A program made the translations under genes and the position numbers. From assembly GCA_016219545.1 (NCBI GenBank), contig JACRMH010000009.1, positions 1 through 64,000 of the forward strand: a DNA stretch of 64,000 nt. The letters are read 5' to 3'. The notes below the pieces were generated by a model, which was given only the letters and a program-made list of their open reading frames with translations, was not told where the DNA came from and ran no database searches. This DNA comes from Chloroflexota bacterium. GTDB taxonomy: Bacteria; Chloroflexota; Anaerolineae; Anaerolineales; Villigracilaceae. This document shows positions 9,765 through 56,906 of the stretch, piece by piece. How positions within the stretch are numbered: the first letter of the stretch is position 1; every line of letters begins with the position of its first letter.

Positions 9765-9839
<75 letters not shown>

Positions 9840-31523: not shown

Positions 31524-31625
31524 TCCGGGCAGGCCCGGCGCGGCGCAGCCTTTCGAACCCCGCCAGGATCGAAAGATAGCAACGGTAAGGAAGTGTCTGC
31601 GGGTGCCGCCGGTTGCCTGTCCGGA
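31524..31625 (+). ncRNA. ffs: Signal recognition particle RNA (small type)
   Basis: The conserved helix-8 motif CAGG-NN-C-GAAA-G-NN-AGCAAC lies at 31564-31582 with a GAAA tetraloop, followed by GGTAAGG. The ends pair: TCCGGGCAGG (31524-31533) with CCTGTCCGGA (31616-31625), and CCCGGCG-type inner pairing with GCCGCCGG. With Ffh this RNA targets nascent membrane proteins. About 100 nt, as in many Gram-negative SRP RNAs; exact ends are estimates. Confidence 0.88.
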
Positions 31626-51523: not shown

Positions 51524-52597
51524 TTACTGACCGACTGCGGCCTTCCAAGCGTCGAGAGATGCCTGAAGGTCAGCGGCGGGAGCGGGGAAGTAACCTACAT
51601 CAGAGATGTTGTCGTTGACGTTGCTCAGGTAGAAATAGATGAAAGCGGCAACCTGTGGTTTCTCTTTGAGGATGGTGGCATCCGAGTACAGGAAGAGCGG
51701 GCGGGAGATGGGGTATGTGCCGTCATCCACGGTAACCTGTGAAGGTTCAACGCCTTCAACGGCAACAGCCTTCAAAGCGCCTGAGTTTTCGGAGAAGTAA
51801 GCGAAGCCGAAATAACCGATGGCGTACTTGGAGCCTTCAACACCCTGAACGAGTACATTGTCATCTTCAGAGAACTGAGCGCTAACGACACCGAGCAAGG
51901 CAGCCTTGCCAGCTTCAATATCGGGCTTGCCATCCGCATTGGGATAAAGAGGAGCGACAATCACTTCGTTGAAGTAATCGAAGGTACCGCTGTCCGCGCC
52001 GGGACCGTAGACCAGAATGGTTTCGGCGGGGAAAGCAGGATCAACTTCATTCCATTTGGTGACTTGAGCGGTGAAGATCTTGCCGAGCTGTTCCTTGGAA
52101 AGAGCCGTGACGAAATCATTTTCTGCGCTTACAACGACCGTGAGGGCATCCGTGCCAACGCGGAAGGCGATGGGTTCGCGAGCGGGAGTAAGAGCTTTGC
52201 AGAGTTCGACTTCGGCATCCTTGATCTTGCGGGAAGCATTCGCAACATCGGTCTCGCCGGTCTTGCAGAAGCGCTCGAAGCCAGCGCCGGAACCGATGCT
52301 GTCCACGGTGATATTTCCAGTGTAACCTTCCTGTTGGAAGAGCTCAGCCATGCGCTCGGAAAGCGGGAAGACGGTGGATGAACCCGCAGTGATAATGTCA
52401 CCGGTGACAGCGTCAGGGGCAAACATCGCCATCGGGTCTTCTGTCGGCGCGACAGTGGGTTCAACAACAACGGGGACTTCGGTGGCTGTGGGTTCCACAA
52501 CAGCCTGGGTCGGGGTGGCGGTAGGTGCGCCACATGCGGCGAGCAACAGGCTCATAACCGCGGCAACAAAAATAATTGAACGAACAGTTTTGGACAT
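51524..52597 (-). CDS. pstS: Phosphate-binding lipoprotein PstS (system 3)
   Basis: A 357-residue lipoprotein with lipobox LAAC and a Pro/Thr/Val-rich linker (about 24-55). Phosphate motifs are standard: GSSTVFPLS, IGSGAGFERF, ANASRKIK and ADSGTFDYF. First gene of pstSCAB; a PhoP-like box lies about 70 bp upstream. Confidence 0.94.
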   Translation of the reverse strand: MSKTVRSIIFVAAVMSLLLAACGAPTATPTQAVVEPTATEVPVVVEPTVAPTEDPMAMFAPDAVTGDIITAGSSTVFPLSERMAELFQQEGYTGNITVDSIGSGAGFERFCKTGETDVANASRKIKDAEVELCKALTPAREPIAFRVGTDALTVVVSAENDFVTALSKEQLGKIFTAQVTKWNEVDPAFPAETILVYGPGADSGTFDYFNEVIVAPLYPNADGKPDIEAGKAALLGVVSAQFSEDDNVLVQGVEGSKYAIGYFGFAYFSENSGALKAVAVEGVEPSQVTVDDGTYPISRPLFLYSDATILKEKPQVAAFIYFYLSNVNDNISDVGYFPAPAADLQASLDAWKAAVGQ

Positions 52598-52667
52598 TTC
52601 TTTTCTCCTTTTGTTTTATATAACGATGAGATGATAAAGGTTTGCTCTTAATGACAATGGAAGAACA

Positions 52668-52684
52668 GGTTAACGTCTTGTTAA
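52668..52684 (-). promoter_or_regulatory. PhoP-like box upstream of pstS (system 3)
   Basis: On the minus strand TTAACA, 5 bp, TTAACC: the TTAACA direct-repeat form with 11-bp period known for Bacillus PhoP. Confidence 0.6.
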
Positions 52685-52689
52685 GGCCT

Positions 52690-55835: not shown

Positions 55836-55869
55836 TGGTTAAGAATATACCATAAAGGAAACTCCTGTC

Positions 55870-55886
55870 TGTTAATGGGATGTTAA
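55870..55886 (-). promoter_or_regulatory. PhoP-like box upstream of phoB
   Basis: On the minus strand two exact TTAACA repeats separated by 5 bp, about 35 bp before the phoB start; TATGGT and TATATT follow as possible -10 boxes. Confidence 0.7.
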
Positions 55887-55902
55887 AGCTGTTTCCCGCT
55901 TA

Positions 55903-55960
55903 AACACTGAACCGCCTCTGACTTGCCCAAGTCATCGGCGGTTCTATAGGGGAGAATGTA
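55903..55960 (-). ncRNA. Candidate small RNA 1 (C-rich loop)
   Basis: On the minus strand: TATAAT (55972-55967), a likely start near 55960, then ACATTCTCCCC and a hairpin of AACCGCC with GGCGGTT (55937-55943 with 55910-55916) around a conserved GACTT-GGGC-AAGTC tip. The layout matches a short sRNA with a terminator hairpin. A second copy lies at 56164-56232. Confidence 0.5.
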
Positions 55961-56086
55961 ATGCCTATTATATGCAGCGACTTAATAGAAACCTGAAGCT
56001 TCATTAAGAGTTGGATGAGAGAAAATTAGATCGAGTTCAAAAATCCTGACACCCCTTAGCAATCTCAGTTCCTCGAGGAGATTGCT

Positions 56087-56114
56087 CACCGCACTGGCGT
56101 ACGGCGCAAGTGTC
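56087..56114. repeat. Dispersed repeat CACCGCACTGGCGT, copy 2
   Basis: Matches 29036-29064. It sits in a larger GC-rich palindromic stretch (about 56040-56155) separating the two small RNA candidates. Confidence 0.6.
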
Positions 56115-56163
56115 GCCACCAAAGGGCAAAGGCGGCGGCTCGCAATGACGGATATACGGTAGA

Positions 56164-56232
56164 GAATTAAAACTCAAACCCCGCTTCAGACTTGCCCAAG
56201 TCTGTCACGGGGTTTGTTGAGGGGAGAATGTA
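56164..56232 (-). ncRNA. Candidate small RNA 2 (C-rich loop)
   Basis: Paralog of candidate 1: TATAAT (56244-56239), ACATTCTCCCC, then a hairpin whose outer stem is AAACCCCG/CGGGGTTT (56208-56215 with 56176-56183) instead of AACCGCC/GGCGGTT, while the inner GACTT...AAGTC tip is unchanged. The paired changes keep the stem, and a T-rich stretch follows. Confidence 0.55.
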
Positions 56233-56300
56233 TTCATTATTATATGCAGCGACTTTAACGCAACCTGAGTAAAACTTAAAAGGAATATGAGAGTTTTTGT

Positions 56301-56906
56301 CTAAAAAAGGGTCATCAGATCATCTAATGAAATCGGACCTTCGCGCAATATCAATGGACTTGGCCCAGTGCAATCCACCAAAGTAGACGGGACTCCGCCT
56401 CTCGTTTTGCCCCCGTCTAAAATTAATGGAATGCGACCCTTGAGTTGGTCGTACACTTCCTGCGCGGTGGATGGATTCGCTCCGCCTGAAATGTTTGCGG
56501 ATGTCACTGCCATTGGCCCCGCAGCGCGTAACAAGGCACACACATCGGCATGATCTGGGATGCGGACAGCGACGGTAGCTGTGGCAGAAACTGCCAATGG
56601 GAGAGTCAGCTTTTTGGGGATGATGCAGGTAAGAGGTCCAGGCCAGAAGCGCGCAGCAAAACGGAGAGCCATGTCTGGGACGTTGTCTCCCACTTTTTCG
56701 AGGTCGCTCATGTCCCCGATCAAAACAGGAATGGCTTTTTCAATGGGACGGTTCTTTGCGGTGTAAATACTTTCGATGGCCGTGTTATCAAAGGCGAGTG
56801 CGCCAAGCCCGTAGACAGTATCGGTGGGAAAAGCGACGATGCCGCCTTTATTTAATATATCCAGTGCGGTTTGGATTTCACTGGCGGGAATGATCTCTGT
56901 TTTCAT
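56301..56906 (-). CDS. tsaC: Threonylcarbamoyl-AMP synthase (Sua5/YciO/YrdC)
   Basis: A 201-residue YrdC-domain enzyme that makes threonylcarbamoyl-AMP for the t6A37 modification of tRNAs. KGGIVAFPTDTVYGLG, KNRPIEKAIPVLI and AVTSANISGGA are family motifs. It overlaps prmC by 4 bp; the long Sua5 C-terminal domain is absent. Confidence 0.94.
   Translation of the reverse strand: MKTEIIPASEIQTALDILNKGGIVAFPTDTVYGLGALAFDNTAIESIYTAKNRPIEKAIPVLIGDMSDLEKVGDNVPDMALRFAARFWPGPLTCIIPKKLTLPLAVSATATVAVRIPDHADVCALLRAAGPMAVTSANISGGANPSTAQEVYDQLKGRIPLILDGGKTRGGVPSTLVDCTGPSPLILREGPISLDDLMTLF

Follow-up and report, generated by a model that had tools for sequence, protein, structure and literature searches.

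The LhrC family of Listeria consists of multicopy small RNAs controlled by a two-component system, in which C-rich sites pair with ribosome-binding sites. The RNAs described here are likewise multicopy and carry a C-rich site, but they come from another phylum and are shorter than the LhrC RNAs, each of which has several UCCC sites. In the csRNAs of Streptococcus, which belong to the CiaRH regulon, several siblings per genome are controlled by a response regulator through NTTAAG-N5-TTTAAG upstream of TATAAT; the part of PMC3091779 that deals with them describes RNAs that end in a terminator, some with the terminator hairpin alone, and that present an unpaired sequence complementary to the Shine-Dalgarno site and AUG. 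The csRNA neighbour gene given in PMC4211561 is ruvB. The same source describes OmrA and OmrB of enterobacteria, encoded in tandem and controlled by EnvZ/OmpR, as twins that agree almost completely over the first 21 nt and diverge in the middle; they are 88 and 82 nt long and interact with Hfq (PMC4211561).

Two head-to-tail units on the minus strand were found between sua5 and a response-regulator gene (Table 1) in the window, i.e. the whole stretch of 64 000 nucleotides that was analysed. We consider it fairly probable that they encode two tandem sibling trans-acting small RNAs that are switched on via an OmpR-family response regulator and block ribosome-binding sites without Hfq. The predicted gene model is strong for both RNA genes: four T-x-A repeats at 11-bp spacing, TATAAT, a purine start 7 nt on, CAUUCUCC at the RNA 5′ end, a hairpin and a T-run. 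In each unit, promoter-like sequence and TATAAT accompany the conserved ACATTCTCCCC and a hairpin. The preliminary description, made from the letters of this DNA, had proposed twin small RNAs here. This proposal is upheld by the twin recovered with BLAST, by covarying stems and by relatives with the same unit, and the elements that it named all lie on the minus strand. As far as the published accounts go, the csRNAs are closest in layout and OmrA/OmrB closest in tandem arrangement. With the csRNAs the units share direct repeats upstream of TATAAT (the 11-bp repeats of all 50 aligned promoters, to which a regulator would bind) and an unpaired sequence complementary to Shine-Dalgarno/AUG together with a terminator hairpin. 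They differ in phylum, in having four repeat units of which units 1 and 3 depart from TTTAAG, in the position of CAUUCUCC at the extreme 5′ end and in their neighbours (sua5/tsaD instead of ruvB), and the likeness is one of layout. The tandem twin arrangement recalls OmrA/OmrB, but the RNAs predicted here are ~60 nt long and Hfq was not found in 57 genomes.

Table 1. Positions in the window of the two predicted small-RNA genes, their elements and the flanking genes
Feature	Position	Strand	Basis
Copy A promoter box, T-x-A repeated four times every 11 bp, overlapping with the -35 region	56253..56291	-	Promoter alignment, letters checked
Copy A -10 element TATAAT	56239..56244	-	Sequence and promoter alignment
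Copy A predicted RNA, ~63 nt, 5'-ACAUUCUCCCC...	56169..56231	-	Family rule (purine 7 nt past TATAAT); RNA model R1, which refound copy A but has it in its training set
Copy A 5' segment CAUUCUCCC, complementary to GGGAGAAUG	56222..56230	-	CATTCTCC conserved in alignments A2 and A4
Copy A terminator-like hairpin, GGGC loop, then TTTT run	56175..56216	-	Fold, covariation, T-run
Copy B promoter box, T-x-A repeated four times every 11 bp	55981..56019	-	Promoter alignment, letters checked
Copy B -10 element TATAAT	55967..55972	-	Sequence and promoter alignment
Copy B predicted RNA, ~58 nt	55902..55959	-	RNA model R1, family start rule
Copy B 5' segment CAUUCUCCC	55950..55958	-	Alignment A2, letters checked
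Copy B terminator-like hairpin, GGGC loop, weak T-run	55909..55944	-	Fold, covariation
sua5/tsaC, conserved upstream neighbour	56301..56906	-	Pfam PF01300
OmpR-family response-regulator gene (phoB of the preliminary description), adjoining the RNAs only in this genome	55125..55835	-	Pfam, NCBIfam

A whole-genome BLAST search with copy A recovered copy B (E 1.9e-12), and the source genome (88 % complete) yielded two copies only. Neither promoter and no terminator was listed for either unit by a simple consensus scan, which missed both because of the short T-runs and the absence of a good -35 from the promoters. The neighbouring products were assigned by Pfam and NCBIfam to Sua5 (PF01300), PrmC, RF-1, a Response_reg/Trans_reg_C protein, a histidine kinase, SurE and a PstS-family protein. 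A TTAACA-N5-TTAACA repeat is present 5′ of the response-regulator gene (55836-55890, minus strand), downstream of the copy B terminator. Elsewhere in the window, Rfam matches comprised a bacterial small SRP RNA (31527-31625, plus strand) and a tRNA (9765-9839). No Rfam family matched the RNAs above its gathering threshold; seven matches were obtained up to E 10, the best at E 0.15 and all to unrelated families. The Chloroflexi-1 motif (RF01698), which is listed in PMC2864571, was absent from these Rfam matches, and a search of the literature with an open licence gave no such RNA in Chloroflexota among the matches listed. The RNA family is conserved and, apparently, undescribed.

Both copies have the hairpin tip GACTTGGGCAAGTC in common, with outer stems of AAACCCCG/CGGGGTTT in one and AACCGCC/GGCGGTT in the other. 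On the RNA strand the two segments folded with z = -4.08 and -3.90, and in either case 0 of 200 shuffles folded as well. Two-sided changes were present in 17 of 18 stem pairs of alignment A4 (61 distinct rows), in which 93.1 % of cells were pairing and the covariation score was 0.733, a value that fell to 0.207 in shuffles and did not exceed 0.108 on sliding; as A4 was fitted to the model, the structure is favoured by construction, and one row in this count is a reverse-strand hairpin match (L017:1481-1540:+), excluded from the T-run, start, promoter and motif counts (n=60 copies). The stems are likewise present in the MAFFT alignment A2. The compensating changes that had been read from the two copies extend to the relatives. 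The true loop is GGGC (57/60 copies), and the earlier placement of UCUCCCC in a hairpin loop has to be corrected, as it lies in an unpaired segment at the presumed 5′ end. The hairpin portion looks different in family f13 (L281).

Of 60 copies, 54 have a run of at least three T after the stem on the RNA strand, and 6 have one on the opposite strand; the run of copy B is weak (GTTT). Because the T-run comes after it and is largely confined to the RNA strand, the hairpin looks like a one-way terminator, and the alignments show a covarying, strand-specific structure of terminator-like form. The hairpins are palindromic and in many relatives lie between convergent genes, as would be the case for mere bidirectional terminators between sua5 and tsaD or for a mobile palindromic repeat. 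However, the T-run is one-stranded, each hairpin has a dedicated promoter upstream, the genome holds only the two copies and synteny is held across families, and we regard this explanation as extremely improbable.

The promoters share a layout: all 50 that were aligned have T-x-A at columns 6, 17, 28 and 39, at intervals of exactly 11 bp, with TATAAT 13 bp past the last T of the series; alignment A5, on which this rests, omits 10 of 60 promoters, most of them out of register. The four units read about YTCATC/YTTAAK/TTCAGG/TTTAAG, and comparable periodicity arose in 27 of 200 000 random placements. Eight distant promoters fitted all four T-x-A units at the best of 15 offsets. At the -35 position there is no good hexamer, and the 11-bp direct repeats stand in its place. 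A purine precedes CATTCTCC in 59 of 59 copies, and the spacing from the -10 element to this purine is 7 nt in 52 of 57. This four-unit repeat layout is that of OmpR/PhoB-family activator sites, from which we infer binding of such a regulator. When the promoters of RNA copies were used to train a promoter-only model, its 33 matches with E below 1e-6 (37 genomes searched) all fell at RNA copies; eight were in genomes outside the training set (G004, G009 (twice), G014, G015, G017, G018 and G020). In these 37 genomes no other gene had a convincing score, the next best matches being weak (E 0.002 and above). One weak RNA-promoter match (L389, G016:C35:95464-95502, E 0.0068) has an OmpR-family regulator gene on one side and a histidine-kinase gene on the other; this regulator is a candidate, as a lead only.

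Among 61 genomes (the source genome, 36 others of the genus and 24 of the order), BLAST with copy A gave matches in 20, and the relatives found carry the same promoter-RNA unit with covarying stems. An RNA model (R1) built from the RNA part only of 32 copies found the family in 53 of the 57 genomes of the genus (E≤0.1) and in 52 at E≤1e-4, with at least two such copies in 18 of the 52 and two copies within 300 nt on one contig in 12; copies may be missed in these counts, since searches over 40 genomes have stricter filters. In an even draw of the order, R1 matched 41 of 151 genomes (E≤0.1). Several reverse-strand matches of the palindromic hairpin were dropped from the genus and order tables. 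Inspection of 26 order-level loci (L068-L093) identified 18 with a promoter and a CATTCTCC-type segment, while eight (L080, L085-L088, L090, L092 and L093) were without promoter or motif and were dropped. Among these 18, seven belong to other families (f7, f8 and f14), five of them with sua5 beside the RNA, and a further diverged copy adjoins sua5 in family f6 (L265). As judged from these matches, the RNA family extends to other genera and to three or more additional families of the order. With promoter and RNA combined in one model (R3, E≤0.01), wider draws gave matches in 16 of 298 genomes from the class and in 20 of 350 from the phylum, all 20 in the order of the source genome. L241/L264 (G046, family f11) had a promoter-like match but no RNA part and was rejected, and two weak matches (L284, f49; L400, f4) were set aside. 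In family f36, three loci (L282, L288 and L283) combine the promoter layout of the RNA family with a different, C/U-rich start, CAACTTCCTTCCTCC, and a hairpin that contains GGCAAG, with two units in tandem in G283; the neighbours, read by eye, are a pseudouridine-5′-phosphate glycosidase gene and a PDZ-like gene. The two f36 genomes, obtained at class level, differ in neighbourhood and hold possible relatives of the RNA family.

The upstream neighbour is conserved. Among the relatives, 53 loci were fetched otherwise than through Sua5, and 40 of these have sua5 adjoining the RNA; the synteny set consisted of 60 relative loci, some overlapping, with flanks of ~1.5 kb or more except at contig ends. 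For 21 Sua5 loci of named genomes (mostly with Anaerolineales or Chloroflexi labels, some Anaerolinea, Brevefilum or Herpetosiphon and one Pelagibacteraceae), a strong R3 match was located just downstream in 17 (E≤1.2e-18) and a weak one (31 bits) at L096; R3 found nothing at L102, L109 and L113 (Pelagibacteraceae record). A TsaD homologue faced the RNAs from the opposite strand in 13 of 20 larger regions fetched, a set that includes one region without the RNA (L264) and in which one TsaD member was confirmed as TsaD. The units share their strand with the response-regulator gene and run from promoter to hairpin, which would suit a leader or attenuator of that downstream gene in place of separate small RNAs. 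Two complete promoter-terminator units in succession, a downstream gene that is not conserved and the facing TsaD homologue argue against a leader, which we consider very unlikely.

The adjacency of the supposed phoBR had led to the proposal of a role in the phosphate response, in which the neighbouring PhoB-like regulator would activate the RNAs at low phosphate. The box is of OmpR/PhoB type with an 11-bp period, the sites of E. coli PhoB in PMC10294691 contain, in our reading, T-C-A repeats of the same period, and a PstS-family gene (51524-52597) is present in the window in addition to the adjacent regulator gene. The product of this regulator gene remained below the NCBIfam cut-offs both for PhoB (221 versus 296 bits) and for YycF (251 versus 340 bits). 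However, this neighbour is not conserved, no PhoB match being among those listed for the 60 relative loci. Upstream of pstS, TTAAC-N6-TTAAC was present in 30 of 30 genus regions examined, compared with 0 of 60 RNA promoters, which therefore do not share with pstS the box that would mark a Pho regulon in the genus. A common register was rejected, as the putative -10 of pstS sits 15 nt from the last unit in the 30 upstream regions versus 13 nt in the RNA promoters, and the RNA-promoter matrix gave a negative best window on every one of the 30 pstS regions. The pstS box of the window itself (52610-52685, minus strand) has four 11-bp units, TTAAC/TTAAC/TTCCA/TTAAG, followed by a TANCAT-type -10. 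Across the genus, PstS was matched in 43 of 57 genomes (E≤1e-60). The four genomes without any RNA match (G005, G066, G069 and G075) are also without a PstS match at this threshold, which counts in favour of a phosphate link, but completeness is only 53 % and 66 % in two of them, and an RNA match is present in 10 of the 14 genomes in which PstS was not matched (weak in G006). Membership of the phosphate regulon is, on balance, doubtful, and the role proposed from the adjacent regulator finds no support.

The 5′ segment is conserved. CATTCTCC did not vary among the 32 copies of alignment A2 and occurs in 59 of 60 distinct A4 copies, with a 5′ consensus of RCAUUCUCCY. Outside the family, loci judged real keep the segment or nearly so (TATTCTCC in L083 and CATCCTCC in L265). 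The complementarity to Shine-Dalgarno sites suggested at the outset is confirmed and goes further, as the segment is the exact complement of a Shine-Dalgarno site plus AAUG. A leader peptide on the plus strand, raised earlier as an alternative, is contradicted by a stop right after the ATG of GGAGAATG in 36 of 59 copies; 20 further frames stop within 14 codons and three are open over the stretch examined.

The complement of the segment, GGAGAAUG, was found at ribosome-binding sites of several genes, in searches with RGGAGAATG in this genome and AGGAGAATGT in six relatives. Over the seven genomes, one orthologous group had a site in four and seven groups had one in three, at least one of the seven being a spurious frame; common sites may reflect shared descent of ribosome-binding sites. 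RGGAGAATG had 74 sites in this genome, two of them the RNA genes themselves, versus 16 for the reversed pattern. An enrichment reading of this difference was rejected, as sister 10-mers with the same Shine-Dalgarno part were about as common: AGGAGAATGT had 16 sites, AGGAGAATTT 16, AGGAGAAAGT 14 and the letter-matched AGGAGAAGTT 8; the full tally of letters after AGGAG, these included, is AATGT 16, AATTT 16, AAAGT 14, AAATT 11, AAGTT 8 and AAGGT 8. Although AGGAGAATGT outnumbers AGGAGAAGTT, its count is close to those of AGGAGAATTT and AGGAGAAAGT, so that genome-wide target selection is not clearly visible. In a local sample, small and rich in pstS orthologues, AATG followed 0 of 53 AGGAG sites.

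The lack of clear enrichment of perfect target sites, the position of the segment at the presumed start site and the GGGC loop as a potential protein site would be compatible with a segment conserved for initial transcription or protein binding, for example as a decoy for an RNA-binding protein, and not for mRNA pairing. The exact complementarity to a Shine-Dalgarno site plus AAUG and the near-invariance of CATTCTCC, kept or nearly kept outside the family, argue against this explanation, which we judge unlikely. The RNAs probably act by pairing with ribosome-binding sites of mRNAs, as we infer from this complementarity. The Hfq model PF17209 matched in 0 of 57 genomes, with the control positive in 5 of 14.

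In the proposed mechanism of trans-acting sibling RNAs with a putative regulator and putative mRNA targets, an OmpR-family response regulator would bind the T-x-A repeats and turn on the ~60-nt RNAs under some stress. The free 5′ segment would then pair with AGGAGAAUG-type ribosome-binding sites and block translation of several mRNAs independently of Hfq. The covarying stem would serve as terminator and stabiliser, and its tip, which within this genus is a nearly constant CUUGGGCAAG, could provide another site of contact. A broader and more tentative possibility is an ancient small-RNA regulon of the Anaerolineales, in which a response regulator would induce short sibling RNAs with a 5′ end resembling the 16S anti-Shine-Dalgarno; these would repress a set of surface, transport and electron-transfer genes without Hfq. 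The RNA family would be a compact test case for Hfq-free small-RNA control under a response regulator, and its dozens of natural variants would show which RNA bases are free and which are fixed.
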